From: Brachybacterium faecium DSM 4810
Lineage (GTDB): Bacteria > Actinomycetota > Actinomycetes > Actinomycetales > Dermabacteraceae
Length of the DNA: 64,000 nucleotides
Direction: 5' to 3'
Assembly (NCBI GenBank): GCA_000023405.1
Contig: CP001643.1
Coordinates: forward strand, 930,001 to 994,000
Shown: positions 586 to 24,819 of the stretch, piece after piece
Position numbering within the stretch: the first letter of the stretch is position 1
How the letters are laid out: every line of letters starts with the position of its first letter
Translations under genes and position numbers: made by a program
Notes under the pieces: model-generated
The model's input: the letters and a program-made list of their open reading frames with translations, nothing else
What the model was told of the DNA's origin: nothing
The model's database searches: none

Positions 586-626
586 GAGGGGTCCTTTCGC
601 AAGGGGTGTGCAGAGGGGGCGGGGGA

Positions 627-1457
627 TCAGCCCGCGGTGACGGCGGGCTCGGCGAGCCAGTCGAAGGCGGTCGCGCGGTCCTGCTTGTACTCGAGGGCGA
701 CGTCGCCGCCGTACCCGAGAGCGCGAGAGCGCTCGATCCACTCGCGCAGGGGCAGGTCTCCGGTGCCGGGGGCGCCGCGGCCGGGGGCATCGGCGATCTG
801 GATGTGCCCGAACTCGGCGGCATGCTCCTCGATGACGGCTGCGACGTCGTCGCCGTTGACGGCGAGATGGTAGAAGTCCGCGAGCAGGCTGATGTTGTCG
901 GCTCCGGCCTCGCGCACCTTCGCGATGACGGCCAGGGCGTCGGCCGCGGTCTTCAGCGGGTACGACTCCGCCCCGGAGACCGGCTCGAGCAGGACGGTCC
1001 CGCCGATGCGGGCGAGCTCCTTCCCGGCGAGGGCGAGGTTGGCCAGCGCGGTCTCGTCCTGGGCCGCAGGGTCCTGGCCCTCGAGGCGCAGGCCGTACAG
1101 GGCGTTGAAGGCCCTGCAGCCGAGCCGCTCGCCGAGCGCGGCGACGACGGCGACGTTGTCGGCGAACTCCTTCTCGCGGCCGGGATGCGAGACGATCCCG
1201 CGCTCGCCGCCGGGCATGTCGCCGGCGAAGAGGTTCAGGCCCACGAGCTGCACGCCCGCTTCCTCGACCGACGCGACGAAGTCGTCGATCTCCTGCGGCG
1301 TGGGGGTGGGGCTGTCGAAGGGCCACCAGAATTCGATGCGCTCGAAGCCGGCGTCGCGGGCGGCCGTGGGGCGCTCCAGCACGGGCAGCTCGGTGAGCAG
1401 CGTCGAGCAGTTGAGGGCGACGTCGCGGGGCGAGGACGCGGGGCGAGGACGGGGCAT
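627..1457 (-). CDS. hyi: hydroxypyruvate isomerase
   Basis: 276-residue TIM-barrel protein of the AP-endonuclease-2 sugar isomerase family. It is expected to interconvert hydroxypyruvate and tartronate semialdehyde in the cytoplasm. Typical signatures are LNCSTLLTELP near the N-terminus, FNALYGLR and LLEPVSGAESYPL in the middle (metal-binding Glu), and ISLLADFYHLAVNGDD and GHIQIADAPGRGAPGTG towards the C-terminus. The ATG at 1457 is chosen because CGAAGGAGCAGTC precedes it; an upstream in-frame ATG adds 16 unlikely residues. It is the first gene before glxR. A three-half-site putative IclR operator sits 54 bp upstream (1511-1535). Glyoxylate carboligase, the usual partner, is not in the window. 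Confidence 0.88.
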   Translation of the reverse strand: MPRPRPASSPRDVALNCSTLLTELPVLERPTAARDAGFERIEFWWPFDSPTPTPQEIDDFVASVEEAGVQLVGLNLFAGDMPGGERGIVSHPGREKEFADNVAVVAALGERLGCRAFNALYGLRLEGQDPAAQDETALANLALAGKELARIGGTVLLEPVSGAESYPLKTAADALAVIAKVREAGADNISLLADFYHLAVNGDDVAAVIEEHAAEFGHIQIADAPGRGAPGTGDLPLREWIERSRALGYGGDVALEYKQDRATAFDWLAEPAVTAG

Positions 1458-1510
1458 GACTGCTCCTTCGAAGTCGTCGGGTGGGACGCCAAGGATTGTT
1501 CTCAAGATGC

Positions 1511-1535
1511 GGAAGAATCTTTCCTTGGTGCGGAA
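1511..1535 (+). promoter_or_regulatory. putative IclR-family operator, site A (upstream of hyi)
   Basis: The sequence reads GGAA-gaatct-TTCC-ttggtgc-GGAA, i.e. GGAA-N6-TTCC-N7-GGAA. The two GGAA blocks are 21 bp apart, two helical turns. The same spacing occurs at 7070, 14660 (opposite strand) and 15566. Binding by the IclR-family protein at 7209-7982 is inferred. Confidence 0.6.
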
Positions 1536-1587
1536 AGACTACGGGGTGTGCGCGGTGTCGTCAACCGCCGTGGACTGCCGTGGACCG

Positions 1588-1625
1588 CCGATCCCCGGCC
1601 GCTGCGCTCAGCGGCCGGGGATCGG
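1588..1625. terminator. hairpin terminator after the malic enzyme - ureidoglycine aminohydrolase operon
   Basis: A perfect 17-bp GC-rich stem (1588-1604 with 1609-1625) closes a CGCT tetraloop. It lies 16 bp past the stop codon of the gene ending at 1641. There is no T tract on either side. Confidence 0.75.
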
Positions 1626-1640
1626 CGGGGCGTGCCGGGC

Positions 1641-2483
1641 TCAGCCCGGGAACGGCATGTGCCGGTGCATGTCCTTGTACAGGAGGTAGCGGAACCGACC
1701 GGGCCCGCCGGCGTAGCACGCCTGGGGGCAGAACGCCCGCAGCCACATGAAGTCGCCGGCCTCCACCTCGACCCAGTCCTGGTTCAGCCGGTACACGGCC
1801 TTGCCCTCGAGCACGTACAGGCCGTGCTCCATGACATGGGTCTCCGCGAACGGGATCGAGCCGCCCGGCTCGAAGGAGACCACGGTGACGTGCATGTCGT
1901 GGCGGACGTCGTCGGGGTCCACGAAACGGGTCGTGGCCCAGGCGCCGTCGGTGTCCGGCATCGGGGTGGGGTCGATGTCCTTCTCGTTCGTCACCACCGC
2001 GGGGGGCGCGTCGATGCCCTCGACCCGCTGGTACCGCTTGCGGATCCACTGCCAGGTGGCGTTCTCGCCGCCGGTGCTCCGCACCGACCACGCGGACCGC
2101 GGGGGGATGTAGGCGAAGCCGCCCGGCTCGAGGAGGTGCGCGGTCCCGTCGATCACGACGGTCAGCTCCCCGGACATGACGAACAGGGCGCTCTCCGCCT
2201 CCGGATCGGTGTCGGGCCGGTCGCTGCCCCCGCCCGGGGCGACCTCCATCAGGTACTGCGAGAAGGTCTCGGCGAAACCGCTGAGCGGGCGCGCGAGCAC
2301 CCAGAGGCGGGTCTCGTCCCAGAAGGGGAGACGGCTGGTGACGATGTCCCGCAGGGTCCCGCGGGGGATCACGGCGTAGGACTCGGTGAACATCGCCCTG
2401 TCCGTGAGCAGATCCGTCTGCGGGGGGAGCCCGCCGGGCGGGAGCTGGTAGGTGGGCGTGCGGTCGGGGGCGGGCGGCGTCAT
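1641..2483 (-). CDS. (S)-ureidoglycine aminohydrolase (bicupin)
   Basis: 280-residue bicupin related to E. coli AllE/YlbA and plant UGlyAH. These enzymes release ammonia from (S)-ureidoglycine, giving (S)-ureidoglycolate in allantoin breakdown. The N-terminal cupin contains ALFVMSGELTVVIDG and EPGGFAYIPP. The C-terminal cupin contains FEPGGSIPFAETHVMEHGLY, with the metal-ligand Glu, His and Gln/His pattern, then LEGKAVYRL and EAGDFMWLRAFCPQ. The start at 2483 follows CCAGGAGGATCGCGCTC and overlaps the upstream stop by 4 bp (ATGA), so the two genes are translationally coupled. It is the last gene of the operon and is followed by a strong hairpin. Confidence 0.88.
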   Translation of the reverse strand: MTPPAPDRTPTYQLPPGGLPPQTDLLTDRAMFTESYAVIPRGTLRDIVTSRLPFWDETRLWVLARPLSGFAETFSQYLMEVAPGGGSDRPDTDPEAESALFVMSGELTVVIDGTAHLLEPGGFAYIPPRSAWSVRSTGGENATWQWIRKRYQRVEGIDAPPAVVTNEKDIDPTPMPDTDGAWATTRFVDPDDVRHDMHVTVVSFEPGGSIPFAETHVMEHGLYVLEGKAVYRLNQDWVEVEAGDFMWLRAFCPQACYAGGPGRFRYLLYKDMHRHMPFPG

Positions 2484-3865
2484 GAGCGCGATCCTCCTGG
2501 GGCGGCGAGAACGGGCGATGCCGGGGCGGGGGCCGCAGCACGGGGATGGGCCAGGGCGGACAGCGCCGAGGCGTCGAGGCCCGAGGCGCCCAGCAGGAGG
2601 TCCTCGTGGATCGCTCCGCACCGAACCCCGCGATGCACGAACCGGGCGAGGGCCCGGGCCGTCGCGGGCTCGTCCATCACCTCCGAGGAGAGGCCCTCGA
2701 CGTAGTTGCGCAGGCGCTCGGCTGCGGCCTCGAAACCGCCCACGTAGAACAGGTAGGTCGCCAGGAACCTCGTGGGCAGCTGCGCCGGATGCAGATCCCA
2801 TCCCTGGTAGTAGCCGCGCTCGAGGGAGCGACGGACCAGGCGGGCGTGGAGCTCCCAGGCCTTGCGGCGCTGAGCGGCATCGCCGAGGGGCAGGATGTTC
2901 GTCGACCCGTCCGAGAGCCGCACCCCGGTGCCGGCGACGGCGACCTGCATCACCGCCTTGGCGTGATCCGCCGCGGGGTGCTCCATGGACTGCTGCTCAG
3001 CGGGGATCTGCAGGCTGTCCGAGTAGTCGTAGGTGCCGTAATGGAGCGCCTCGACCCGACCGCCGGTGCGGTGGATGACGTCGCCGAGGGGCGAGCGGCC
3101 GTCCGCGCCGAAGATCAGGGGAGCCGTCTCCATCTGCACCTCGAAGCGCAGCCGGCCCGACGCCAGGCCGAGCTGCTGCTCGAGCTGCTCGCACGCGCTG
3201 ACCATGACCTGCACCTGCGCGAGGGTGCTGACCTTGGGCAGGGTGAGCACGAGGCCCGGGGGCAGCCCGTCGGTGCTGATGCCGGCCTCCGCGAGCCCTC
3301 CCCCGCGCACGAGGGTGCTCACGAAGAGGTCGAGGGTGCGCAGGGCACGTGCCCGGGTGGGGGCCTCGAGGCTCTTGAAGCGGATGCCGAGGAACGGCGG
3401 CGCGGTGCCCGCGATCACGGCGCGGGCGACGGCCCGTGCGGCGGCGACCGCCTGGCTGTCCTCCTCCGTGTCGGGGCGATCCCCGAAGCCGTCCTCGAAG
3501 TCGATCCGGAGATCCTCGATCGGCTCGGTGAGGAGCTTGCGCTCGACCGCCTGGACGACGGTGCCGAGGATCTGCGGGTCCGTGCCCGGGGGCGCGATGC
3601 GCCGGGCGAGCTCGTCCAGGCCGTCCTCGGCGACGGCCGCGAGGGCCCGCTCACCCCACGCCCGGGGGAGGTCCGGGGTGAAGTCGTCCGCGGGGACGTA
3701 CACGGTGTGCACCGGCTGCCGGGTCCCCGGATCACCCGGATAGCTCGTGGCGAGGAGCTCGTCGGTCGCGGCGAGCTGCTCGTCGGCGGAACGCAGGAAG
3801 TCCTCGGACAGCACCCCGCCGGTGGTGCAGGAGCAGTCCTCCTCGGGAAGGGAAGCGCTGGTCAT
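2480..3865 (-). CDS. DUF6986-type aldolase/citrate-lyase-like protein of purine catabolism clusters
   Basis: 461 residues, resembling the HpcH/HpaI aldolase / citrate lyase beta barrel superfamily and the group labelled DUF6986, whose reaction I do not know. Acidic and metal-binding-like segments are visible: LRIDFEDGFGDRPDTEED (about residues 110-130) and LRFEVQMETAPLIFGADG (about 235-255), then VEALHYGTYDYSD. It starts 4 bp inside the end of malate synthase and ends 4 bp inside the start of ureidoglycine aminohydrolase (ATGA overlaps on both sides). This ties its expression tightly to glyoxylate and ureidoglycine metabolism. A cysteine-containing N-terminal tail (EEDCSCTTGG) precedes the barrel. 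A role as a lyase acting on a ureido or glyoxylate-derived acid is inference only. Confidence 0.75.
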   Translation of the reverse strand: MTSASLPEEDCSCTTGGVLSEDFLRSADEQLAATDELLATSYPGDPGTRQPVHTVYVPADDFTPDLPRAWGERALAAVAEDGLDELARRIAPPGTDPQILGTVVQAVERKLLTEPIEDLRIDFEDGFGDRPDTEEDSQAVAAARAVARAVIAGTAPPFLGIRFKSLEAPTRARALRTLDLFVSTLVRGGGLAEAGISTDGLPPGLVLTLPKVSTLAQVQVMVSACEQLEQQLGLASGRLRFEVQMETAPLIFGADGRSPLGDVIHRTGGRVEALHYGTYDYSDSLQIPAEQQSMEHPAADHAKAVMQVAVAGTGVRLSDGSTNILPLGDAAQRRKAWELHARLVRRSLERGYYQGWDLHPAQLPTRFLATYLFYVGGFEAAAERLRNYVEGLSSEVMDEPATARALARFVHRGVRCGAIHEDLLLGASGLDASALSALAHPRAAAPAPASPVLAAPGGSRS

Positions 3866-5493
3866 CGGGCCTCCATGAACTCGTAGGCGGGCAGGGTCAG
3901 GAAGTCCTGGTACTCCTCGTCCAGCACGAGACGGGTCACCAGCTCGATCGCCGGCTCGATGTGCGCGGCGAGCTCCTCGATCCCGCCGAGCTCCCGGCGG
4001 ATCGTCTCGCTCTGCGCCGCGATGGCCTCCTCGACGAGCTCGCGGGTCGCGGTGTTCCCGGTGTCCCGGTAGACGACGCCGTTGTGGATCTGCTGCCAGA
4101 CCTGCGAGCGCGAGATCTCGGCGGTGGCCGCGTCCTCCATGAGGTTGTTGATCGCCACCGCTCCGTTGCCCGAGAGCCACACCGCGACGTAGCGGAAGGC
4201 GACGTAGAGGTTCAGGTGCAGCTCCTTCTCGGTCCGCACCTCTCCCGCGCTCGCGACGTCGAGCAGCTGATCGGCGGTGACCTCGACGTCCTCGCGGGTG
4301 CGGTCGATCTGGTGGGGTCGCTCGCCGAGCACGCCGTCGAACACCTCTCGGCAGATCTCGACGAGGTCGGGGTGGGCCACCCACGATCCGTCGAAGCCGT
4401 CCCGGGCCTCGCGGGTCTTGTCCTGGCGGACGCTCTCGAAGGCCGCGGCGGTGACCTCCGGCTCGCGGCGGTTGGGGATGAACGCGGCCATGCCTCCCAT
4501 GGCGACCGCGCCGCGACGGTGGCACGTGCGCACGAGCAGGTCCGTGTAGGCCCGCATGAGCGGGGCGGTCATCGTGACGGTCGAGCGGTCGGCGAGCTGG
4601 AACCTCTCCCCGGCATCGCGGAACGTCTTGATGATGCTGAAGAGGTAGTCCCAGCGGCCCGCGTTCAGGCCGGAGGCGTGCTCGCGCAGCTCGTAGAGGA
4701 TCTCCTCCATCTCGAAGGCGGCGGGGATGGTCTCGATGAGGACGGTGGCCCGGACGGTGCCGTGCGCGATCCCGAGGCGCTCCTCGGCGTAGGTGAACAC
4801 CTCGTTCCAGAGCTTCGCCTCGAGGTGGGACTCGAGCTTGGGCAGGTAGTAGTACGGGCCGCGGTCCTTCTCGGACAGCGCGGCGGCGGTGTGGAAGAAG
4901 TGCAGGCCGAAGTCGACCAGGGAGGCGGAGGCGGGTGCTCCGTCGATGCGCACGTTGTGCTCGGGCAGGTGCAGCCCGCGCGGGCGGGCGACGACCACGG
5001 CGGACGGCTCGTCCTCGCGCAGGCGGTACTGCTTCCCCTCCGGGGAGGTGAAGGCGAGCGTCCCGTGCGCGGCGTCGCGGAGGTTCAGGATGCCGCCGAC
5101 CTGGTTGAGCCAGGTCGGGCTCGAGGCGTCCTCGAGGTCCGCGAGCCAGACCTTCGCCCCGGAGTTCAGGGCGTTGATCGCCATCTTCGCGGGCATGGCC
5201 GGGCCGGTGATCTCGACGCGGCGGTCCCGGAGGGCGGGCGGCGCCTCGGGGACCGACCAGCTCTCGTCCTCGCGGATCGAGCGGGTCGACTCCAGGAAGT
5301 CGAGTCGGCCGCGCTCCGCGGCCTCGCGGCGCTTCTCGGTGCGCTGGGCGAGGAGCTCGAGGCGCCGCGCGTCGAAGCGGCGGTGCAGCTCGGCGACGAA
5401 GTCCAGCGCCTCGGCGCTGAGGATCTCCTCGGCCTGCGCGAGGCCCTCCGGTCTGGTGGCCTCGACGGCCGAGGGGGTGGTGATGGTGCTCAT
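3862..5493 (-). CDS. aceB: malate synthase A
   Basis: 543 residues, normal length for malate synthase A. It condenses glyoxylate with acetyl-CoA to malate. Recognisable elements are RVEITGPAMPAKMAINALN, KVWLADLEDASSPTW (metal/glyoxylate site), the family signature around KLESHLEAKLWNEVF, VLIETIPAAFEMEEILYE, and GLNAGRWDYLFSIIK. The catalytic-Asp region NNLMEDAATAEISRSQVW is near the C-terminus. In this operon the likely role is use of glyoxylate from ureidoglycolate rather than a classical glyoxylate shunt, since no isocitrate lyase is present. It lies 69 bp downstream of the malic enzyme gene and overlaps the next gene by 4 bp. Confidence 0.95.
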   Translation of the reverse strand: MSTITTPSAVEATRPEGLAQAEEILSAEALDFVAELHRRFDARRLELLAQRTEKRREAAERGRLDFLESTRSIREDESWSVPEAPPALRDRRVEITGPAMPAKMAINALNSGAKVWLADLEDASSPTWLNQVGGILNLRDAAHGTLAFTSPEGKQYRLREDEPSAVVVARPRGLHLPEHNVRIDGAPASASLVDFGLHFFHTAAALSEKDRGPYYYLPKLESHLEAKLWNEVFTYAEERLGIAHGTVRATVLIETIPAAFEMEEILYELREHASGLNAGRWDYLFSIIKTFRDAGERFQLADRSTVTMTAPLMRAYTDLLVRTCHRRGAVAMGGMAAFIPNRREPEVTAAAFESVRQDKTREARDGFDGSWVAHPDLVEICREVFDGVLGERPHQIDRTREDVEVTADQLLDVASAGEVRTEKELHLNLYVAFRYVAVWLSGNGAVAINNLMEDAATAEISRSQVWQQIHNGVVYRDTGNTATRELVEEAIAAQSETIRRELGGIEELAAHIEPAIELVTRLVLDEEYQDFLTLPAYEFMEAR

Positions 5494-5562
5494 GGTGTCT
5501 CCGTTCTCGGGGCGCCCGGTCGTGCCGGGCGATGGGGCGTGATCGGTCCCGCGCCGCGCCGC

Positions 5563-6987
5563 TCAGGCGCCGATCTCGGCGAGGGCGTGCTCGGGCTCCT
5601 GCGAGGTGACCTGGATGCTGCCCCGCACGGCGTCGGCGACGGCCGGGGAGACCGCCGCGTCGAAGACGCTGGGGATGATGTAGCTCGCGTTGAGCTCGCT
5701 CTCGCGCACGCAGCCGGCGATCGCGCTCGCCGCGGCGACGAGCATCTCGGTGCGGATCTCGGCCGCGCCCGCGTCGAGCAGCCCGCGGAACAGGCCCGGG
5801 AAGGCGAGGACGTTGTTGATCTGGTTGGGGAAGTCTGAGCGGCCGGTCGCGACCACGGCGGCGTGGCGCGAGGCGGCCACGGGATCGACCTCGGGGGTCG
5901 GGTTCGCCATCGCGAAGACGATCGCCTCGGGAGCCATCGCGGCGATGTCCTCCTCCTCGAGGATGTCCGGCCCGGAGACGCCGATGAAGACGTCCGCGTC
6001 GACCATCGCCTCCTTGAGGGTCCCGGAGAAGCCGTCGGCATTGGTGTTCTCCGCGATCCACCGCCGGTGCTCGTCGGCGAGGTCCCGGCCTCGGTGGATC
6101 GCGCCCTGGCGATCGCACGCGACGATCTTCCCGGCCCCCTCGTGGTGGAGGAGCTGGATGATCGCGTGCCCGGCGGCACCGACGCCGGAGACCACCACGC
6201 GGACGTCCGCGATGTCCTTGCCGACCACACGCAGCGCGTTGTAGAGGGCGGCCAGGGCGACGATCGCGGTGCCGTGCTGGTCGTCGTGGAAGACGGGGAT
6301 GTCCAGCTCCTCCTGGAGCCGGGCGAGGATCTCGAAGCAGCGGGGAGCGGCGATGTCCTCGAGGTTGATGCCGCCGTAGACGGGCGCGATCGCCTTGACG
6401 ATCTCGATGATCTGCTCGGTGTCGGTCGTGTCGAGGCAGACGGGCCATGCATCGACGTCCGCGAAGGATTTGAACAGGGCGGCCTTGCCCTCCATGACCG
6501 GGAGCGCTGCGGCCGGGCCGATGTCGCCGAGCCCGAGGACGGCGGTCCCGTCGGTCACGACGGCGACGGTGTTGCGCTTGATGGTCAGGCGGCGGGCGTC
6601 GGCGGGGTTGTCGTGGATCGCCATGCACACCCGCGCCACCCCCGGGGTGTAGGCGCGGGAGAGGTCGTCACGGTTGCGCAGGGAGACCCGCGGGGTGACC
6701 TCGATCTTGCCCCCGAGATGGATGAGGAAGGTGCGGTCGGAGACCTTGTGGACCTCGAGGCCGTCCTGGGACTCGAGCGAGGAGATCAGACGGTCCCGGT
6801 GGGCGTCGTCGCCCACGTTGCAGCTGACGTCGACGATCAGCATCTCGGGAGTCGACTCGACGACGTCGAGAGCCGTGACGATCGCGCCGACCGCGGCCAC
6901 GCTCGAGGCGATGGTGCTGGTCGCGTCCGTGGTGCTGGGCACCTGTACACGTAGGATCAATGAGTGTCCGGGGCTGGGGGCGGCCAT
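5563..6987 (-). CDS. NAD(P)-dependent malic enzyme with N-terminal ACT domain
   Basis: 474 residues; oxidatively decarboxylates malate to pyruvate. Residues about 8-85 form an ACT-like regulatory domain ([10 protein letters not shown]...[12 protein letters not shown]), as in many bacterial malic enzymes. The catalytic part follows: [51 protein letters not shown] (catalytic Lys) and [13 protein letters not shown] (metal-binding Asp pair). The Rossmann segment is [13 protein letters not shown]. The start follows CCCAGGAGGACCAGAC. It is the first gene of the leftward malate synthase operon and is divergent from the IclR regulator, with site B between them. With malate synthase it converts glyoxylate plus acetyl-CoA to pyruvate. 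Confidence 0.93.
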
Positions 6988-7069
6988 GTCTGGTCCTCCT
7001 GGGAGTGAAGAGTCGTCCGGTCGCTCTCCGCGGCGGTGCCCGGTGGGCCCTCCGCCGGAGGCTGGTTGT

Positions 7070-7094
7070 GGAAGTTTTATTCCGCATGATGGAT
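7070..7094 (+). promoter_or_regulatory. putative IclR-family operator, site B (malic enzyme / iclR intergenic)
   Basis: GGAA-gtttta-TTCC-gcatgat-GGAT, the same N6/N7 three-half-site layout as sites A and C with one change in the last half-site. It sits between divergent genes, 82 bp upstream of malic enzyme and 114 bp upstream of the regulator, a position suited to autoregulation and control of the operon. Confidence 0.6.
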
Positions 7095-7208
7095 AGTATG
7101 GTCGTCGAGGGGCGAACGCAAGAGCGACATCCTCCGGCGCATCACTCTCACTACAATCGAGTCGACCTCCCCGGGTCGACGAACGGCACGAACGAGGAGA
7201 CGCAGTAC

Positions 7209-7982
7209 ATGGCGGCCAAGCAGGGAACAGGCGCAGTGCAGTCGGTGGAGCGGGTCTTCCACCTGCTCGAGGTGGTCGCCGAGGCGGATCGGGAGATGTC
7301 CCTCAGCGAGCTCTCCCAGGCGGTCGAGCTGCCGCTGCCCACCATCCACCGCCTGCTGCGCACCCTCGTGGGGCCCGGCTACATCCGCCAGCTTCCCAAC
7401 CGCACGTACGTCCTGGGACCTCGGCTGATCTGGCTCGGCGAGGCGGCCACGCGCCAGCTCGGGCCGACGGGACGTCCCTTCCTCCAGCACCTCGCGGACG
7501 AGCTCGGGGAGTCGGCGAACATGGCTGCGCTCGACGGGCAGATGATCGTCTACGTCGGCCAGGTGCAGTCGAACCGCTCGATGCGCATGTTCACCGAGGT
7601 GGGCCGCCGCGCCTTCCCGCACGCCACCGGTGTGGGGAAGGCGCTGCTGGCCACGCTGCCCAACGCGGAGGTCGAGAAGATCGTGCGCGGCACCGGCATG
7701 CCGCAGCCGACGTCGAAGAGTGCCGCGTCGCTCGAGGAGCTCTTCGAGCGCCTGGACGTGGTGCGCGAGCAGGGATTCGCTATCGACGACGAGGAGCAGG
7801 AGCTCGGCGTGCGCTGCTACGCCATGGCCGTGCCCGGGGAGCGGTCCCGGATCGCGATCTCCGTGTCCGGCCCGTCCTCCCGCGTGGACGCGGACTTCGG
7901 CGAGCGCGCCGTGCCGCTGCTCCGCGAGGTCGCGCAGCAGGTGGCCGAGGAGATGGACCTGGTCCCGGGTCGGGAGAGCTGA
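7209..7982 (+). CDS. IclR-family transcriptional regulator, likely of urate/allantoin-glyoxylate genes
   Basis: 257 residues. The N-terminal winged helix-turn-helix spans about residues 8-70 (SVERVFHLLEVVAE, LSELSQAVELPLPTIHRLLR). The IclR effector domain runs from about 80 to 250 (FPHATGVGKALLATLP, GFAIDDEEQELGVRCYAMAV). The ATG at 7209 is chosen because the family begins just before the HTH and GAGGAGACGCAGTAC precedes it; the longer upstream reading frame has no family match. Family members such as AllR control allantoin and glyoxylate genes. The effector here is unknown; glyoxylate or an allantoin-derived compound is inference. Its putative operators are at 1511, 7070, 14660 and 15566. 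Confidence 0.88.
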   Translation: MAAKQGTGAVQSVERVFHLLEVVAEADREMSLSELSQAVELPLPTIHRLLRTLVGPGYIRQLPNRTYVLGPRLIWLGEAATRQLGPTGRPFLQHLADELGESANMAALDGQMIVYVGQVQSNRSMRMFTEVGRRAFPHATGVGKALLATLPNAEVEKIVRGTGMPQPTSKSAASLEELFERLDVVREQGFAIDDEEQELGVRCYAMAVPGERSRIAISVSGPSSRVDADFGERAVPLLREVAQQVAEEMDLVPGRES

Positions 7983-8012
7983 CGAGCCCGACGCCGCCGT
8001 CGCCATCCGCCC

Positions 8013-10814
8013 TCAGGCGTCCCCGCCGGAGACGCCGCTCGTGCCTGCCGCGGGATCGTCGAGCCGGTAGCGGCTGATCGCCTCGGCCGCCGCCGAGGCG
8101 GGAACCTCTCCGCGCCGGGTCAGGAGCTGCAGGGTGCGGACCACCACGCTGTGCGTGTCCGTGCCGAAGAACCGCCGTGCGCCCGCGCGGGTGTCGGAGA
8201 ACCCGAAGCCGTCGGCGCCGAGGGTCGCGAAGTCGTTCGGCAGCAGGTGTCGCACCTGGTCGGGAACATCGGAGCAGAAGTCGGAGACGGCGACCACCGG
8301 GCCCTCCGCCCCCGCGAGCTTCTGCGTCAGGTACGGGACCGGTGCGGGCTCGTCGGGATGGCGGAAGGCGTGCTTCTCCGCCTCGAGCCCGTCGCGACGC
8401 AGCTGGTTCCACGAGGTCACCGACCACACGGTCGCCGCGACCGACCATTCCTCGGCGAGGATCCGCTGGGCTTCGAGGGCCCAGGGGACGGCGACGCCCG
8501 AGGCGAGCAGCTGCGCCCGGGGGCGGCCTTGCTGCACCTCGGGGGCGGGAGAGACCCGGTGGATGCCCCGGAGGATCCCGTCCACGTCGACGTCCTCGGG
8601 CTCGGCCGGCTGCTGGACCGGCTCGTTGTACACGGTGAGGTAGTACATGACGTCGTGGTCCTCGTCCCCGGTGCCGTACATCTGCTCGATGCCGCGGCGG
8701 ACGATGTGCCCGATCTCGTACCCGTAGGCGGGGTCGTAGTGGATCACGGCGGGGTTCGTCGAGGCGAGGACGGGGGAGTGGCCGTCCATGTGCTGCAGCC
8801 CCTCCCCGGCGAGGGTGGTGCGCCCCGCGGTCGCCCCGATCACGAAGCCGCGGGCGAGCTGGTCGGCGGCTGCCCAGAAGGAGTCCCCCGTTCGCTGGAA
8901 CCCGAACATCGAGTAGAAGACGTACACCGGGATCATCGGCTCGCCGTGCGTCGCATAGGACGTCCCGGCCGCGGTGAACGCCGAGGTCGCGCCGGCCTCG
9001 TTGATGCCCGGGTGCAGGATCACGCCCTGTGCGGACTCCTTGTAGGACAGGAAGAGCTCGCGGTCCACCGAGAGGTATCTCTGGCCCGCGGGGTTGTAGA
9101 TCTTCGCGGTGGGGAAGAAGGCGTCCATGCCGAAGGTGCGGGACTCGTCGGGGACGATCGGGACGATCCGATGCCCGAAATCCGGCTCTTTCATGAGGTC
9201 CTTGAGCAGACGCACGAACGCCATCGTCGTCGCGGCGGCGTTCTTCCCGCTGCCGCGGGCGGCGGAGTCGTAGGCGCGTGGGCGGGGGAGGGCGATCCGG
9301 TCGCGTGAGGGGGCCCGGGCGGGCAGGAAGCCGCCCAGCTCGCGCCGTCGCTCGAGCAGGTAGTCGAGCTCGGGGGAGCCCGGGGCGGGCCGGTAGTAGG
9401 GCGGAGCGTGCGGATCGGCGTCGAGCTCCGCATCGGAGATCGGGATGCGCAGATGGTCGCGGAACGCCGTGAGATCCTCGAGGGTCAGCGTCTTCATCTG
9501 GTGGGTGGCGTTGCGGCTCTCGAAACGGGCCCCCAGCCCGTGCCCCTTGACGGACTTCGCCAGGATCACGGTGGGAGCGCCGGTGTGCTCGACGGCCGCC
9601 CGATAGGCCGCATACACCTTGCGGGGGTCGTGGGCGCCTCGCCGGAGCGCCCAGAGATCGTCGTCGGAGAGAGTGCTGACCAGGTCCTTCGTCACCGGGG
9701 AGCGGCCGAAGAAGTTGTCCCGCAGGAACCCGCCGGATTCGCCGCGGAACGTCTGGTAGTCGCCGTCGAGCGTCTCGTTCATGATGCGGACCAGCTCGCC
9801 GGTCTCATCCTGCGCCAGCAGCGGATCCCAGCCCCGGCCCCAGAGCACCTTGACGACGTTCCATCCGGCGCCGCGGAAGAAGCTCTCGAGCTCCTGCACG
9901 ATCTTGCCGTTGCCGCGCACGGGCCCGTCGAGCCGCTGGAGGTTGCAGTTGACCACGAAGGTGAGGTTGTCCAGCTGTTCGTTCGCCGCGTGGTGGAGGA
10001 GCCCGCGGCTCTCCGGCTCGTCCATCTCGCCGTCCCCGAGGAACGCCCACACCCGCTGCTGGGAGGTGTCCTTGATCCCGCGGCCGTGGAGGTATCGGTT
10101 GAACTGCGCCTGATAGATCGCGTTCATCGGGCCGAGGCCCATCGAGACCGTGGGGAACTGCCAGAAGTCGGAGAGGCCGCGCGGATGCGGGTAGGAGGGG
10201 AGCCCGTGACCGGGCATCGTCTTCTCCTGCCGGAAGCCGTTGAGGTCCGCCTCGCTCAGCCGCCCCTCGAGGAAGGCGCGGGCGTAGTTCCCGGGCGAGG
10301 AGTGGCCCTGCCAGAACACCTGGTCCCCGCCGCCGGGATGATCCGCTCCCCGGAAGAAGTGGTTCAGTCCCACCTCGTAGAGCGTAGAGATGCCCGCGTA
10401 GGAGGAGATGTGTCCGCCCACGCCCACGCCGGGGCGCTGGGCCCGATGCACCATGACGGCGGCGTTCCACCGGATGATCGCCCGGTACTTCCGCTCGAGC
10501 TCCTCATCCCCCGGGTATGCGGGCTCGAGCTCTGCGGGGATGGTGTTGACGTAGTCGGTGGCCCCGGCGGTCGGTGCGGAGACGCCGTGCAGGCGGGCGC
10601 GCTCGACCAGATCGGTGAGGATGCGCTGGGTCGTGACCGGTCCGCGCGCACGGACGAGCCCGTCCAGCGAGGCCGCCCACTCGTGGTCCTCCTCGAGGTC
10701 CGGTCCCTGATCCGCGTCGTGCTCCGGCGCGTGCCGTGAGGCCGGCGAGAGAGCGGGGGCGGGGGAGACCGGGGTCGTCCGCGGGAGGGCGTCGGCGGGG
10801 ACGATCGAGTTCAT
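8013..10814 (-). CDS. aceE: pyruvate dehydrogenase E1 component, homodimeric type
   Basis: 933 residues, typical of homodimeric AceE of proteobacteria and actinobacteria. It decarboxylates pyruvate and passes the acetyl group to the E2 lipoyl domain. The thiamine diphosphate motif appears as [16 protein letters not shown], with [17 protein letters not shown] downstream. The N-terminal part has [19 protein letters not shown] and NHFFRGADH. The central and C-terminal transketolase-like segments include [18 protein letters not shown] and [16 protein letters not shown]. The start follows a GAAAGGAC element. No E2 or E3 gene is adjacent. The gene lies between the malate synthase and urate blocks, which is suggestive because PDH regenerates the acetyl-CoA that malate synthase consumes. 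Confidence 0.95.
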
Positions 10815-10861
10815 GGGGGTCCTTTCAGGGCACCGCTGCGGTGCGGGTGGGCTCCTTGCAG

Positions 10862-10892
10862 GGGCCCGCCGGCGTCATGCGCCGACGGGCCC
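10862..10892. terminator. hairpin terminator downstream of the NCS2 permease
   Basis: Two 13-nt arms (10862-10874 and 10880-10892, one mismatch) flank a TCATG loop. They lie 61 bp past the permease stop and 48 bp before the aceE start. No T tract follows. Confidence 0.65.
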
Positions 10893-10952
10893 GGAGCGGA
10901 GGGTCGATGTCAGGTTCTCGGCGTCCGGCGATCGCGGGACGTCACGTTCTCC

Positions 10953-12653
10953 TCAGCGATCTCCCGGGCGCGGCAGCGCAGGATCCGCGCTCCCGCCCTC
11001 GCCGACCGCGGCGACGGGCGCGGCGCCCGGCCGGGAGGAGGGGACCGGGCCGGTCTCGAGCGGGGTGGTGACCGGGGCCGCGGAGCCGATCGGGTCCGCC
11101 TCGGCGGAGGGCATGGTCGGGTGCTCCGCAGGGCCGTCCAGCTCGCAGATGGGGACGTCGACGACCTCCCCCTCCGCGGTGATGACCGGGACCTCCTGGC
11201 CGTGGCAGTCCACGAGACGGCCGCCTTCGACGTGGTCGCCCTCCTGCAGGTGGTGGCTGAGGTGCTCGAGCGATTCGTAGGAGATGCCGCGCAGAGGCGC
11301 ACGGGCGAACACGGATCCCTCGCCGTCCGGCGGGTTCCCGGCCTTCAGCTCGTTGAACAGCAGGTTCAGCGTCACCGCGACGACCGCGGCGGAGCTGATC
11401 CCCGAGTGGAAGATGGTCTGGAACCAGGTGGGGAAGGCGTCGTAGACGTCGGGATTGACCACCGGCAGCATGCCGGCGCCGAGGGAGGCGGCGACGATGA
11501 CCATGTTTCCGGTCCCGTCGTAGCTCACCTTCCCCAGCGTGCGGATGCCCGAGACGGCCACCGTGCCGAACAGCACGATGCCTGCCCCGCCGAGCACCGG
11601 CGAGGGGATCGCCGAGACGACACGCCCCAGCACCGGCAGCAGGCCGAGGACCACCATGATCGCGCCGCCCGCGGTGACCACGAAACGGCTCTTCACCCCG
11701 GTGATCGCCACGAGGCCGACGTTCTGGGCGAAGGCGCTCTGCGTGAATCCGTTGAACAGGGGTGCGAGGAAGGAAGCGCCCATGTCGGCGCGCAGGCCGT
11801 CGGCGATGCGCCGTCTGTCGACCTCGGTGTCCACGATCTCGCCGACGGCGATGATGTCCGCCGTGGTCTCGGTGAGGATCACGATGACCACGATCAGCAT
11901 CGAGATGATGGCCGCGAACTCGAAGACCGGCGGGCCGAAGGCCAGCGGGCTCGGCAGGGCGAAGAGCGGGCCCTCGGCGAGGCCGCTGAAGTCCGCCTGC
12001 CCGGTGAAGGCGGCGAGGACCGTCCCCAGGACGATGCCCAGCAGGATCGAGAGCCGCGAGATCGCGGCATTGCCGAGCTTGGACAGCAGCAGGATGATGG
12101 CCAGCGTCGCGAACCCTAGGCCGACGTTCCCCGGGGAGGCGTAGTCGGGGGCCTCGGCGTCGTCGCCCATGATCCATCCCCCGGCGACGGGGAACAGGGA
12201 GAGCCCGATCGTGGCGATCACGACCCCGGTGACGACGGGTGGGAAGAATCTGACGATCCGCGCGAACAGCGGGGCGATCAGGAACCCGATCGCCGCGGAG
12301 ACCATCACGGCGCCGAACACGGCCTGGATGCCGCCGGGGCCTCCGACGATGGCGGTCATCGTCGCGACTCCCGCGAAGGAGGTTCCCTGCACCAGCGGCA
12401 GGCGCGAGCCGAAGAACGGGATCCCGAAGGATTGCAGGATCGTCGCCAATCCGCCGACGAACAGGCAGCAGGCGATGAGCAGTGCCTGTTCCTGCGGGGT
12501 GACGCCGGCTGCAGCACCGACGATCAGCGGCGGGGCGATGATCCCGCCGTACATGGTCAGGACATGCTGCAGGCCGTAGCTGACGTCCTTGCCGACGCCG
12601 AGGTGTTCGTCCTCGGGGCGGGCGGAGGCCGGGGCCGTCACGGTGACGCTCAT
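10953..12653 (-). CDS. NCS2-family xanthine/urate permease with long C-terminal tail
   Basis: 566-residue nucleobase:cation symporter-2 (NAT family) membrane protein with about 14 predicted transmembrane segments up to residue ~440. The NAT signature is QNVGLVAITGVKSR. The VQGTSFAGVATM segment and the acidic TM8-like ILTETTADIIAVGE are also present. The location directly after uricase points to urate or xanthine as substrate; the sequence alone does not separate these. The last ~123 residues form a soluble tail: a folded-looking part containing EGDHVEGGRLVDCHGQ, then about 60 residues rich in Pro, Ala and Gly. Uptake across the cytoplasmic membrane is coupled to protons or sodium in this family. 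The start ATG is within 12 bp of a CCTTACGAAGGAGTAAGTGA element. Confidence 0.9.
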   Translation of the reverse strand: MSVTVTAPASARPEDEHLGVGKDVSYGLQHVLTMYGGIIAPPLIVGAAAGVTPQEQALLIACCLFVGGLATILQSFGIPFFGSRLPLVQGTSFAGVATMTAIVGGPGGIQAVFGAVMVSAAIGFLIAPLFARIVRFFPPVVTGVVIATIGLSLFPVAGGWIMGDDAEAPDYASPGNVGLGFATLAIILLLSKLGNAAISRLSILLGIVLGTVLAAFTGQADFSGLAEGPLFALPSPLAFGPPVFEFAAIISMLIVVIVILTETTADIIAVGEIVDTEVDRRRIADGLRADMGASFLAPLFNGFTQSAFAQNVGLVAITGVKSRFVVTAGGAIMVVLGLLPVLGRVVSAIPSPVLGGAGIVLFGTVAVSGIRTLGKVSYDGTGNMVIVAASLGAGMLPVVNPDVYDAFPTWFQTIFHSGISSAAVVAVTLNLLFNELKAGNPPDGEGSVFARAPLRGISYESLEHLSHHLQEGDHVEGGRLVDCHGQEVPVITAEGEVVDVPICELDGPAEHPTMPSAEADPIGSAAPVTTPLETGPVPSSRPGAAPVAAVGEGGSADPALPRPGDR

Positions 12654-12682
12654 TCACTTACTCCTTCGTAAGGTGATGCGGG

Positions 12683-12712
12683 CCGGGGCCCGCCGTCCTC
12701 GGCGGGCCCCGG
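12683..12712. terminator. hairpin between uricase and the permease gene
   Basis: A perfect 13-bp GC stem (12683-12695 with 12700-12712) closes a TCCT loop. It lies 9 bp past the uricase stop and 29 bp upstream of the permease start. It could partly terminate transcription or protect the upstream mRNA, giving less permease than uricase. Confidence 0.65.
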
Positions 12713-12721
12713 TGAGAGGGA

Positions 12722-13666
12722 TCAGCAGAATCCGTTGATGCCCATCCAGGCATCGTCGGCCGTGGGGGCCCCCTTGCGCTGGAGAGTGGCCTCGATGAGG
12801 CCGAAGGGGCGGTCCGCCGCGTGGTGCGTCTCGAGGTTGTTCTCGATGCCGGCGAAGCCGAGGTCGTACACGAAATGGTGCTTGTTGGGGCAGGAGAACT
12901 TGATCTCGTCGATCTCCGGGTGGGCCGTGAGCACGGCGCTGCCCATGTGGTGGAGGGTCTCCTGCAGCGCACGGGAGTAGTGATCGGTGAACTTCGACAG
13001 GAGGATCTTCTTCACGCTGCGGTAGACCTCATCGAAGTCGACATCCGTGGTGCTGTAGCGCCAGCGGGTCGCGATGTCGGTCGAGAGGATGCGATCCTGG
13101 GTCTCCTGCAGGGTCGTGAACCGATCCTTCGGGTATCCCTCGAAGCCGGATCCGGTGGACTTCAGGACGGTCAGATCGTAGAAGCCGGAGATCACCGTGC
13201 GCTTCTCGCCGTCGGTGACCACCACCGCGGTGCGCTTCTCCTGCTTCGACTCGACGAAGCAGTGATCGTGATCGTCGATCCGCTCCCAGGCGTGCTCCTC
13301 GGCCTCCCAGCGGCCGCCGTGGATCCACTCGAACTCCGAGGTGAAATGGTCCGAGAGCGCCAGCAGGAGCTGCTCGGGCGACTTCACGCCGTGGGTCTGG
13401 GCGAAGCCGAACACGGTGTTCTTCTGGGTGTCGGTGGCGACGCAGTGGGCGTTGTCGCCCTCGGAATGCATTGCCTCCAGGTCACCGCGCAGTTGCGAGG
13501 TGACGGTGACGTCCCGGATCTCGTGGCGCGGCGTACCGCGCGTGATGCGCACGACGTGCGTCTCCGCCTTGCCGTACTGGGTGGGTCCGAGGACGATCTC
13601 GGCCTCGTTCGGGGGGCTCGCGGAGTCGGAGCGGTGGGTCGAAGGCTTGTCGAGGATGTCGGTCAT
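12722..13666 (-). CDS. urate oxidase (uricase)
   Basis: 314 residues, cofactor-free uricase made of tandem T-fold (tunnelling fold) domains. It oxidises urate with O2 to 5-hydroxyisourate and releases H2O2. Signatures visible are VLGPTQYGKAETHVVRITR near residue 25, the catalytic Thr region HCVATDTQKNTVFGFAQ (about residue 75-90), FTSEFEWIHGG, ISGFYDLTVLKSTGSGFEGY and TRWRYS. The C-terminal domain contains EIKFSCPNKHHFVYDLGF. It lies 68 bp downstream of uraH in the uraD-uraH-uricase-permease operon. The H2O2 by-product makes the nearby peroxiredoxin at 14817 functionally interesting. Confidence 0.95.
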   Translation of the reverse strand: MTDILDKPSTHRSDSASPPNEAEIVLGPTQYGKAETHVVRITRGTPRHEIRDVTVTSQLRGDLEAMHSEGDNAHCVATDTQKNTVFGFAQTHGVKSPEQLLLALSDHFTSEFEWIHGGRWEAEEHAWERIDDHDHCFVESKQEKRTAVVVTDGEKRTVISGFYDLTVLKSTGSGFEGYPKDRFTTLQETQDRILSTDIATRWRYSTTDVDFDEVYRSVKKILLSKFTDHYSRALQETLHHMGSAVLTAHPEIDEIKFSCPNKHHFVYDLGFAGIENNLETHHAADRPFGLIEATLQRKGAPTADDAWMGINGFC

Positions 13667-13734
13667 GGGGTCTTTCCTTCATCATTGGAGGGCGGGTGTG
13701 TCGGGGGAGCCGCCGGCCGCGGCCGACTCCTGTG

Positions 13735-14061
13735 TCAGCTCCCCCGATAGGTGGAGAACGCGAACGGGCTGAGCAGGAGGGGCACGTGGTAGTGCTCCTG
13801 CGTCGATCCGATCGTGAAGTCCACGGTGATGCGCGGGAAGAACGTCGCCTGATCGCTGGCGGCGAAGTAGTCTCCCGTCTCGAAGGTGATCCGGTAGTCA
13901 CCGGTATCCAGGGTCTGTGGGCCGAGGTCGCGCACGCGTCCGTCGGCATCGGTGGTCGCCGAGGCGATGTGCTCGCCCGAGGCGGTGCTGAGGGTCAGCT
14001 CGACGCCGGCGGCGGGCACGCCCCAGCGCGTGTCGAGGATGTGGGCGGAGAGGTGGCTCAT
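13735..14061 (-). CDS. uraH: 5-hydroxyisourate hydrolase
   Basis: 108 residues, transthyretin-like hydrolase that opens 5-hydroxyisourate to OHCU, step two after uricase. The N-terminal SHLSAHILDTRWGVPA carries the conserved His. HYHVPLLLSPFAFSTYRGS at the C-terminus carries further active-site residues and the diagnostic YRGS ending. Full length for the family, without an export signal, so it is cytoplasmic. It starts 4 bp inside the end of uraD (ATGA overlap), showing translational coupling. Confidence 0.95.
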   Translation of the reverse strand: MSHLSAHILDTRWGVPAAGVELTLSTASGEHIASATTDADGRVRDLGPQTLDTGDYRITFETGDYFAASDQATFFPRITVDFTIGSTQEHYHVPLLLSPFAFSTYRGS

Positions 14062-14555
14062 GGTGTGGTCATCCCTTCGAGTCGGCCGGTGGCGATCTGG
14101 CGGAGCTGCTGGGCGATGACCCTCAGCTCGCGCTCGGCGTCGTTGCCCATGCGCTCCTCGAGCGTTGCGAGGATCTCGGCGGGCGTGCGCCCTGCGGCCC
14201 GGATGAGGAAGACCCTCCCGAACCGCTCTTCGTAGGCGACGTTGCGGGCCCTCAGCTCGCGCTGGAGGTCAGCGTCGTCGGGGTCGATGCCTCCCTGCTC
14301 GGCGCGGGACAGCTCGGCCTCGGCGCCGTCGCCCTCGGCGCGGTCGCCGATGCGCGGGTGGTGCACGAGTGCCTGGTCGATCTCGGCTACCGTGAACGGC
14401 TCTGCAGCGGTGGCCGCGGTCCTCAAGAGCTGCTCCCGGGTCGCGAAGGGCCGGGCGGCGACGATCTCGTCGATCCAACGCGCGATGTCGAGAGCGGGAC
14501 GCAGGAACGCCGAGGCCGCCTCGGCGTCGAGGGAATTGAAGTCGTCGATGGTCAT
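14058..14555 (-). CDS. uraD: OHCU (2-oxo-4-hydroxy-4-carboxy-5-ureidoimidazoline) decarboxylase
   Basis: 165 residues, helical decarboxylase that produces (S)-allantoin, the last step of the uricase route. FNSLDAEAASAFLRPALDIARW at the N-terminus is replaced in wording here by its key parts, FNSLD and LRPAL. The catalytic His is in HHPRIGDRA (about residues 68-76), and the LRARNVAYEERFGRVFLIRA segment is represented by YEERFGRVFLIRAAGRT. The ATG at 14555 is preceded by AAGAAGTGGAGAT. It is the first gene of the urate operon; putative operator site D lies 105 bp upstream. Confidence 0.93.
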   Translation of the reverse strand: MTIDDFNSLDAEAASAFLRPALDIARWIDEIVAARPFATREQLLRTAATAAEPFTVAEIDQALVHHPRIGDRAEGDGAEAELSRAEQGGIDPDDADLQRELRARNVAYEERFGRVFLIRAAGRTPAEILATLEERMGNDAERELRVIAQQLRQIATGRLEGMTTP

Positions 14556-14659
14556 ATCTCCACTTCTTCGTGGTGGTCGCGGCCCTCGGTGAGCCGTGGG
14601 GGCGGTCCCCACCGGTGCCGTCTCTGGTCAGTCGGGGATGTGCACTGAAACGCCACTGT

Positions 14660-14684
14660 TTCCGCTAGATGAAAACTTGTTTTC
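14660..14684 (-). promoter_or_regulatory. putative IclR-family operator, site D (upstream of uraD)
   Basis: Read on the minus strand: GAAA-N6-TTTC-N7-GGAA, the layout of sites A-C with the first palindrome carrying A for the second G. The core TGAAAACTTGTTTTCA (14670-14685) is a 7-bp-armed palindrome in a locally AT-rich patch. A further GAAAC-N6-GTTTC repeat overlaps its upstream edge (14647-14662). Confidence 0.5.
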
Positions 14685-14816
14685 ATTCCGCGTCAGTCAA
14701 GCGGACTGTCCGATCGCTGTCAAGCCGCCCGGCCGGATCGCCGGCTGCGAGTCCTGGTCGCGATGCGGTCGAGGGCCCGGCGCTTGCGGGGGCGAGGTGA
14801 CGGCAGTCCTCGGGGG

Positions 14817-15290
14817 TCAGGGGCGACTCCCGAGTGTGTCGATGAGGGTGGCGACGTGCCCCGCGGCGCCGACTGCGTAGTCGGCCGCGAGGACGACGCC
14901 GTCCTCGTCCAGGACGATCGTCGAGCGCAGCGGGCCCTCGCTCCGCTCCCCGGCGATCTCCCGCTCTCCCCATGCTCCCCAGGCGCGGGCCGTCCGGGAG
15001 TCGGGGTCTGAGAGCAGGGTGAACGGCAGCTCGTAGGTCGTCGCGAAGTCGGCGAGCGTGTCGGGGGTGTCGGCGGAGATCCCGAGGATGCGATATCCGC
15101 GCTCGTCGAGGGCGGACTCGTGGTCGCGGAAGTCGCAGGCCTCGGTGGTGCACCCCGGGGTGAAGGCTTTCGGGTAGAAGTAGACGACGGTGCGGCGACC
15201 GTGCAGGTCAGCGAGGGTGACGCGGTCTCCGCGGGTGTCGGCGAGATCGAGGTCGGGGGCGCGATCTCCGGGGGAGAGCTGCTGGGGCAT
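14817..15290 (-). CDS. peroxiredoxin, BCP/thiol-peroxidase type
   Basis: 157 residues, thioredoxin-fold peroxidase reducing H2O2 and organic peroxides. The peroxidatic Cys is in FTPGCTTEACDFRD (about residues 43-56), and the second Cys five residues later is the resolving-Cys position of BCP-type 1-Cys/atypical 2-Cys enzymes. VVYFYPKAFTPGC and LLSDPDSRTARAWGAWG are typical. It lies downstream of a 60-residue membrane protein gene (31-bp gap), and the pair follows putative operator site C. Co-regulation with uricase, whose reaction produces H2O2, is inferred from the shared operator pattern. Confidence 0.9.
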   Translation of the reverse strand: MPQQLSPGDRAPDLDLADTRGDRVTLADLHGRRTVVYFYPKAFTPGCTTEACDFRDHESALDERGYRILGISADTPDTLADFATTYELPFTLLSDPDSRTARAWGAWGEREIAGERSEGPLRSTIVLDEDGVVLAADYAVGAAGHVATLIDTLGSRP

Positions 15291-15321
15291 CGGGGTTCTC
15301 CTATCGGCGGCGGGTGAGCGG

Positions 15322-15504
15322 TCAGGCGATTCGGTTCACGAGGAGCACCGCGCACGCGCTGGTCAGAGCGATCGAGGCGACGATCCAGGCGGGCAGCCGC
15401 GGCGGGCTCGAGGACCTGTCGGGCAGGACGAAGTCCGGGTCGCAGGTGATGGTCGCAGGCACAGCTGTATGAATCGATGCCGACGGGGGTGGTGGGGTGG
15501 TCAT
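15322..15504 (-). CDS. small single-span membrane protein of unknown function
   Basis: 60 residues. A Pro/Ser-rich N-terminus with one Cys (TITCDPDF) precedes one hydrophobic segment, WIVASIALTSACAVLLV (about residues 40-56). The protein ends almost directly after the membrane span, a C-tail-anchored layout. CCCGGAGGCAGCC gives a strong ribosome binding site, which supports a real gene despite its size. It precedes the peroxiredoxin by 31 bp and follows putative operator site C by 61 bp. I recognise no family. Confidence 0.55.
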   Translation of the reverse strand: MTTPPPPSASIHTAVPATITCDPDFVLPDRSSSPPRLPAWIVASIALTSACAVLLVNRIA

Positions 15505-15565
15505 GGCTGCCTCCGGGGTGCTGGCGAGCGGACGTGCCGCCCGGCGGGCTAGGAATCCATCTAGT

Positions 15566-15590
15566 GGAAGTGAACTTCCATAACATGGAA
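15566..15590 (+). promoter_or_regulatory. putative IclR-family operator, site C (upstream of the membrane protein-peroxiredoxin pair)
   Basis: GGAA-gtgaac-TTCC-ataacat-GGAA, an exact match to the N6/N7 layout of site A. GGAAGTGAACTTCC and TTCCATAACATGGAA are two overlapping palindromes sharing the middle TTCC. Rightward there is only the convergent end of the sialidase operon, so the likely target is the leftward gene at 15504. Confidence 0.6.
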
Positions 15591-15756
15591 ACTAGCGCAG
15601 AGGGTCGATGTCGTCAAGAGGTCCGGCACTTCTCCTGGGTGCCGCAGCCACCGTCCCGAGAGATCGCTGGCCTTCCCACTGCTGCGCCGGAGATCGCTCA
15701 ACCGCCGTGAGCTGTGCCGTCCGCTGCACTCGGCCGCCGGGATCCTCGGGAACGCA

Positions 15757-15796
15757 GAAGCGGGGGCATCCACCTGCTGGTGGATGCCCCCGCTTC
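15757..15796. terminator. terminator of the sialic-acid operon
   Basis: A perfect 18-bp stem (15757-15774 with 15779-15796) closes a TGCT loop, 57 bp past the last sialidase stop codon. No T run follows. Confidence 0.8.
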
Positions 15797-15853
15797 ACCT
15801 CTCGCACGTCACGGCAGGAACGATCTCGATCCACGCCGGCGAGCCGCTCTGCC

Positions 15854-18210: not shown

Positions 18211-18295
18211 CGAGGATCTCTCCTTCATCGGGGGTTTCCTTCGGGGCTCGCGCCGTGGCGGTCACGGTGCGAGGGCTGGGGTGCCGGCGCTGCGG

Positions 18296-18988: not shown

Positions 18989-18998
18989 GGCGGTCCTT

Positions 18999-20901: not shown

Positions 20902-20957
20902 GGTGGGGATGCTCCTTGGAGAGTCGGTGGGTGGCGGGGTGCGCCGGCGCGGCGGGG

Positions 20958-21752: not shown

Positions 21753-23770
<2,018 letters not shown>

Positions 23771-23771
23771 G

Positions 23772-24737: not shown

Positions 24738-24782
24738 GAGGTCCTCCGTGACGTGACGGTGGGGTGGGACAGAGGTGGGCGC

Positions 24783-24809: not shown

Positions 24810-24819
24810 ACGCGGCGGC

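Follow-up and report, generated by a model that had tools for sequence, protein, structure and literature searches.

The 64,000-nucleotide stretch of the Brachybacterium faecium DSM 4810 chromosome analyzed here (contig CP001643.1, positions 930,001 to 994,000; hereafter the window, to which all coordinates refer) begins with a cluster of purine and glyoxylate catabolism genes surrounding a gene for an IclR-family regulator. Four intergenic regions of this cluster carry the pattern GGAA-N6-TTCC-N7-GGAA or a close variant. We propose, with a probability of roughly 0.8, that these sites (S1 to S4) are arrays of alternating half-sites recognized by an actinobacterial AllR-type regulator, which would repress the adjoining genes until glyoxylate or allantoate binds. 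The regulator and the putative operators are as follows.

1500–1535, minus strand: operator S1, three exact boxes and a weak left box, in the region separating the ureidoglycine aminohydrolase gene from hyi
7070–7094, no strand assigned: operator S2, last box GGAT, in the intergenic region of the divergent gene pair for malic enzyme and IclR
7209–7982, plus strand: IclR-family regulator, AllR/IclR/BhcR-like, 257 amino acids, assigned from NCBIfam, IclR_C, PDB homologues (including E. coli IclR and AllR) and orthologues
14660–14684, minus strand: operator S3, GAAA-N6-TTTC-N7-GGAA, upstream of uraD
15555–15590, minus strand: operator S4, four alternating boxes, the leftmost ATCC, upstream of the genes for the small membrane protein and the peroxiredoxin

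The four sites that the initial annotation reported are all present with the letters it gave, at 1511–1535 and 15566–15590 (the exact three-box parts of S1 and S4), at 7070–7094 and, on the minus strand, at 14660–14684; the outer boxes are indeed 21 bp apart. They lie ~60–130 bp upstream of start codons, with the hyi start ~60 bp downstream of S1. S2 has three boxes and no clear fourth, and S4 matches the pattern on both strands because of its further left box (ATCC). S3 is the weakest of the four in B. faecium (9.8 bits with the covariance model R1 described below), and the copies in relatives are nearer the consensus, with one mismatch in 11 letters. Matches within the iclR coding region (7237–7270, found in relatives too) were set aside as coding coincidence.

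The exact pattern GGAA-N6-TTCC-N7-GGA, with 11 fixed letters, produces four strand matches in the 3.61-Mb genome (one contig). These fall at three places, all in the cluster, and the reversed control pattern produces none in the same genome. The genome-wide scan suggested in the initial annotation thus finds exact matches confined to the purine and glyoxylate cluster, not scattered at chance frequency. The Poisson probability of three places within 14 kb is ~7e-9, a figure uncorrected for the motif having been picked after looking. Among 38 genomes of the genus, the 34 without a close IclR orthologue hold 30 exact matches in total, or 0.88 per genome. When two mismatches are allowed, the window contains 19 matches versus 10.4 expected, and 3 of 100 shuffles reach 19; this enrichment is only mildly above chance, and the strength of the case therefore rests on the exact pattern and its conservation. 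Such a mild excess would suit a chance resemblance in the A+T-richer intergenic DNA, an explanation that the rarity of the exact pattern in the whole genome contradicts.

Conservation speaks against chance as well. An orthologue of the regulator at no less than 82% identity occurs in 4 of the 38 genus genomes (B. faecium itself, G000, and G003, G030 and G037), while G014 has only a 33% relative. These are the same four genomes that have the conserved sites: in the comparison with related genomes that the initial annotation had suggested, S1 to S4 are all kept in the three other orthologue-bearing members. In alignments of the orthologous intergenic regions, the sites appear as conserved blocks in diverged DNA, the 25-nucleotide S2 being identical in all four genomes and the boxes of S1, S3 and S4 being mainly conserved with diverging flanks. 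G011, G016 and G019 encode urate oxidase (51–54%) without such a regulator; the exact pattern is absent from G011 and G016 and occurs once in G019, far from uox. In the fragmented genome G026, which has uox at 82%, no regulator was found.

Beyond the genus, orthologue-like genes are present in 111 of 394 genomes of the class (E≤1e-60). We examined 43 outside loci (838 kb), comprising 40 loci hand-picked from among these genomes together with Tsukamurella L044, Enemella L045 and Brevibacterium L047. With three boxes and up to one mismatch, the 6/7 spacing yields 54 matches versus 0–15 at 63 other combinations. Each half of the arrangement is also spacing-specific on its own: TTCC-N7-GGAA gives 104 exact strand matches against 2–22 at 20 other spacings, and GGAA-N6-TTCC gives 60 against 4–26 at other spacings. 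The 46 distinct sites collected from these loci display features at positions that were not used in the search, namely R-Y adjoining the boxes and, on the left, a fourth box enriched in T-T. At least three of the four letters of this box are present in 19 of 43 distinct flanks at position -11 and in 15 of 43 at -12, compared with 2–14% at seven other registers. A simple two-box operator was consequently dropped as an incomplete description, given the spacing specificity of the third box and the enrichment of the left fourth box outside the seeded positions. Judged by these sequences, the repeat unit appears best described as alternating half-sites, in which N6 links successive TTCC-N7-GGAA palindromes and some sites have a fourth box. 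The palindrome plus direct repeat of the initial annotation keeps its three-box build (compare the IclR sites with three boxes or in tandem in PMC8222616), refined to alternating half-sites that sometimes number four.

The outside sites also stand before the expected genes. Forty-one of the 46 adjoin a regulon homologue, lying within 400 nucleotides before (or 40 nucleotides after) its estimated start, versus 11.7% of random positions (n=9200); the genes behind them are iclR (14), aceB (13), allB (9), uraD (4), an NCS1 permease (4) and others. Upstream regions of iclR itself contain a site in 13 of 43 loci at up to one mismatch and in 25 of 43 at up to two, compared with 1.3% and 3.6%, respectively, of 2190 control stretches; four shifted spacings give 0, 5, 0 and 3 of 43 at up to one mismatch.

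A held-out scan returns to the genus with a sequence-only covariance model (R1; 39 positions) trained on 31 of the 46 outside sites, none from Brachybacterium, and run on 12 genus genomes with E up to 10. Across the B. faecium genome, R1 reports S1, S2 and S4 (on both strands) and nothing else at E≤10. It recovers exactly the four orthologous sites in both G003 and G037, and in G030 the four sites and one extra. The extra site lies ~0.2 kb upstream of an xdhA-type gene with xanthine-dehydrogenase small-subunit domains (Fer2, Fer2_2, FAD_binding_5). The same gene in G003 and G037 has a far weaker likeness at equal distance (three mismatches, a level that other places in those stretches reach too), and a search of the B. 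faecium genome found no xdhA-type homologue. The eight genomes without the orthologue give two weak matches in total. A chance origin of the sites is rejected as practically negligible, contradicted by the exact genome scan, the conservation, the spacing tests outside the genus and this held-out scan.

The protein encoded at 7209–7982 has an N-terminal helix-turn-helix and an IclR_C domain (PF01614, 134.8 bits, over the cut-off), which place it in the IclR family, and its NCBIfam and PDB matches span residues about 9–250. The closest curated NCBIfam models are BhcR, IclR, PcaR/PcaU, KdgR and AllR, all below cut-off. The best match, the BhcR equivalog NF045644, scores 177.8 of 350 bits, ahead of the IclR equivalog (148.8 of 380), the PcaR/PcaU/PobR subfamily TIGR02431 (145 of 284.75) and the AllR equivalog NF007548 (105.2 of 406). 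Recognition-helix residues P44, T45, H47 and R48 are present in 47, 48, 48 and 49 of 49 orthologues, a near-invariance that is in line with the conserved boxes.

Ligand-binding residues were numbered by alignment to E. coli IclR and the residue table of PMC11323563, in which five IclR residues contact glyoxylate oxygens. Four of these contacts are kept (Gly160, Asp212, Ser239 and Ser241), and at position 161 Val replaces Ala. Around the pyruvate methyl group, the patch consists of Ser143, Met146, Ala154 and Val220. Across the 49 orthologous sequences, B. faecium included, Gly160 occurs in 45, Val161 in 48, Asp212 in 48, Val220 in 49, Ser239 in 45 and Ser241 in 49. The pocket is thus predicted to be of the glyoxylate type and, having smaller side chains at 143 and 154, would admit a bulkier ligand such as allantoate. 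Allantoate is reportedly an effector of Streptomyces AllR. In functional terms, the sites before allantoin and glyoxylate genes and before the regulator's own gene, together with the four glyoxylate contacts, point to an AllR-type protein. Where the initial annotation drew a parallel with PcaU and PobR, the likeness to three-box IclR operators stands, and AllR is the closer analogue because the pocket appears to be of the glyoxylate type.

The remaining genes of the cluster are listed below.

1–585, minus strand: glxR-like tartronate semialdehyde reductase, partial (cut by the window edge), NCBIfam score below cut-off
627–1457, minus strand: hyi, hydroxypyruvate isomerase-like, below the equivalog cut-off
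1641–2393, minus strand: (S)-ureidoglycine aminohydrolase (cupin), above cut-offs, start position approximate
2483–3862, minus strand: DUF6986 protein, predicted fold like malate synthase A or malyl-CoA lyase
3862–5493, minus strand: malate synthase A (aceB), above cut-off
5563–6987, minus strand: malic enzyme, subfamily match below cut-off
8013–10814, minus strand: aceE paralogue coding for a second pyruvate dehydrogenase E1, the genome having a further copy at a different locus
10953–12653, minus strand: xanthine/urate permease (NCS2, pbuX type), above cut-off
12722–13666, minus strand: urate oxidase, above cut-off
13735–14061, minus strand: 5-hydroxyisourate hydrolase (uraH, transthyretin-like)
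14058–14555, minus strand: OHCU decarboxylase (uraD), mechanical open reading frame to 14612, ATG at 14555
14817–15290, minus strand: peroxiredoxin (AhpC/TSA, Bcp-like)
15322–15504, minus strand: small membrane-type protein of 60 amino acids upstream of the peroxiredoxin, with a TCDPDFVLxDR segment conserved in four genomes

On the minus strand, S2 is followed by malic enzyme, malate synthase A, DUF6986 and (S)-ureidoglycine aminohydrolase, and S3 by uraD, uraH, urate oxidase, the NCS2 permease and the aceE-type E1; the regulator gene adjoins S2 on the plus strand. Beyond the left edge of the window, the gene run behind S1 goes on with gcl, glycerate kinase and allB. As for the single linked pathway of the initial annotation, genes leading from urate to allantoin, towards glyoxylate and on to glycerate or pyruvate are present, except that no gene was identified for the allantoate step; a search of the B. 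faecium genome for AllC gave no match. The ureidoglycine aminohydrolase also scores above the cut-off of NF040771, a model named bifunctional allantoicase/(S)-ureidoglycine aminohydrolase.

These observations support four repeated operators under one regulator. In the proposed circuit, the 7209–7982 protein, as a dimer or tetramer, would sit on the alternating half-sites (TTCC-N7-GGAA joined by GGAA-N6-TTCC, with a 21-bp repeat). With operon limits drawn from strand and spacing, S1 would control hyi-glxR-gcl-glxK-allB; S2, malic enzyme-aceB-DUF6986-ureidoglycine aminohydrolase and the regulator's own gene; S3, uraD-uraH-uox-pbuX-aceE2; and S4, the membrane protein-peroxiredoxin pair. Repression would be lifted once a pathway intermediate, glyoxylate or allantoate, binds the effector domain.

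Two other assignments of the sites have to be weighed. Operators of a different IclR-family protein coded elsewhere in the genome would be compatible with a half-site consensus that is common across the family and with the presence of four further IclR_C genes. None of those four genes is near the sites, the 7209–7982 gene being, as first reported, the only one of the five IclR_C genes in the genome that lies in the window. Moreover, the conserved sites and its orthologue co-occur in the same 4 of 38 genus genomes, and a site lies in its own upstream region both in B. faecium and at many of the loci beyond the genus, which makes a different protein very improbable. It is also conceivable, though unlikely, that the same regulator binds the sites mainly as an activator, or activates its targets and represses itself. 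PcaU and PobR act as activators. PcaU-type three-box operators are among those named in PMC8222616, and BhcR, the best NCBIfam match (177.8 bits, cut-off 350), is described as activating the bhc operon, with glyoxylate lowering its DNA binding in vitro (PMC11323563). On the other hand, E. coli IclR and AllR, which have a similar pocket, are repressors (PMC11323563), and the homologue in S. coelicolor is stated to be a repressor of the allantoin pathway (PMC12772271). The site-to-start distances fit activation or repression alike. Repression by the 7209–7982 protein is probably the correct sign.

Several results weigh against this AllR-type repressor model. The description of BhcR as an activator (PMC11323563), the four further IclR genes combined with a family-general box type, and pocket residues 143, 154, 161 and 220 unlike those of E. 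coli IclR and AllR all count here, as does a consensus promoter scan of positions 1–16000 that gave one match and none near the sites, so that promoter occlusion would be no more than a putative mode of repression. Exact matches outside the cluster, absent from B. faecium and G003, number two in G030 and one in G037. R1 did not recover S3 in the B. faecium genome scan; it scored only the candidates of a loose first look (at most 150 in 6 of the 12 genomes), and its two weak matches in genomes without the orthologue, whose neighbours were named by eye and are unrelated to the regulon, lie upstream of an enolase-superfamily gene (G023, E 0.6) and near a membrane-transporter-like frame (G008, E 1.1). 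Outside the genus, 15 of the 43 loci, including Brevibacterium L047, have no site at up to one mismatch, nor do L046 and L049 to L052, and in the whole genomes of L044 and L045 the iclR locus accounts for just 2 of the 6 and 1 of the 4 exact matches, respectively. Finally, the gene-association count carries a small circularity, as the NCS1 permease, malate synthase G and guanine-deaminase-like queries were taken from site neighbours.

Three-box IclR operators and control by Streptomyces AllR are already known, and the B. faecium cluster is a well-supported further case with a longer gene list. AllR, an IclR-family protein, was reportedly described by Navone et al. in 2015 as regulating the allantoin genes of Streptomyces coelicolor. 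The B. faecium regulator is 55–59% identical to proteins presumed to be from Streptomyces, and of nine presumed Streptomyces loci, eight have a site before aceB and five between iclR and allB (up to one mismatch); no statement of the Streptomyces AllR box was found in the literature searched. Compared with the Streptomyces AllR system, the B. faecium cluster adds uox-uraH-uraD, malic enzyme, the second aceE, peroxiredoxin, ureidoglycine aminohydrolase and DUF6986. The additions to the known gene list are the second pyruvate dehydrogenase E1, the peroxiredoxin and DUF6986 with its predicted malate-synthase-like fold.

The E. coli AllR and IclR systems share residues 160, 212, 239 and 241, similar target genes and GGAA..TTCC operators (table in PMC8222616). 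The B. faecium regulator differs from them in equivalog scores far under the cut-offs, in residues 143, 154, 161 and 220 and in having as operator an array of three or four boxes. BhcR of Paracoccus denitrificans also has a branched residue at 161 and an altered hydrophobic patch (PMC11323563), although the regulator reaches only half of the curated BhcR cut-off. In PMC8222616 (Suvorova and Gelfand 2021), three-box operators are given for PcaU, PobR, HmgR and 32 predicted groups, with the group 1 consensus GKTYCRYW3-4RYGRAMC, the group 2 consensus TGRAACAN1-2TGTTYCA and tandem sites of 18–22 nucleotides. The present sites resemble these in their alternating boxes with the spacings of groups 1 and 2, of which both N6 and N7 are specific in the 43 outside loci, in the RY flanks of group 1 at unseeded positions and in the 21-bp repeat; they depart from them in lacking the inner CA..TG of group 2, in the fourth box that some of them have and in the purine genes they adjoin.

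The gene content hints at a physiological role. Malate synthase, malic enzyme and pyruvate dehydrogenase E1 would together oxidize glyoxylate in a closed cycle, in which malate synthase and perhaps DUF6986 would condense glyoxylate with acetyl-CoA, malic enzyme would convert the malate to pyruvate and the dedicated second E1 would lead back to acetyl-CoA. Because urate oxidase produces hydrogen peroxide, shared control with a peroxiredoxin that handles this product would make sense. That one AllR-type regulator runs such a glyoxylate-burning cycle, tied to purine breakdown and read out through a widened pocket that senses both allantoate and glyoxylate, is a tentative extension that we hold to be somewhat doubtful. 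Two copies of aceE are found in the six cluster-bearing genomes tested and one in three genus genomes without the regulator, and in L099, a genome outside the genus, a separate site stands ~40 nucleotides before the frame of the aceE copy.

DUF6986 is a candidate malate-synthase-like enzyme on the basis of its AlphaFold model (mean predicted local distance difference test score of 81), whose best PDB matches in Foldseek are malate synthase A and malyl-CoA lyases (E ~2e-6, template modelling score ~0.48, 13–16% identity). A sequence profile of five relatives finds no match among PDB sequences at E up to 1, and no mention of DUF6986 was found in the literature searched. Of 20 DUF6986-bearing loci, 11 have no aceB within the stretch examined.

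Sequence alone thus yields a regulator, an operator and a target list for a purine-catabolic pathway, and ties to that pathway several genes of unclear role, including the second aceE, DUF6986, the 60-amino-acid membrane-type protein and the peroxiredoxin. With their three or four boxes, the sites also offer natural material for testing IclR dimerization at alternating half-sites, a question raised in PMC8222616. To the right of ~16 kb the gene content changes: the minus-strand genes at 15854–26463, which encode sialidase-like BNR proteins, a ROK kinase, a lyase of the DHDPS family and an ATP-binding cassette transporter of the peptide type, look like a cluster for sialic acid uptake and breakdown.

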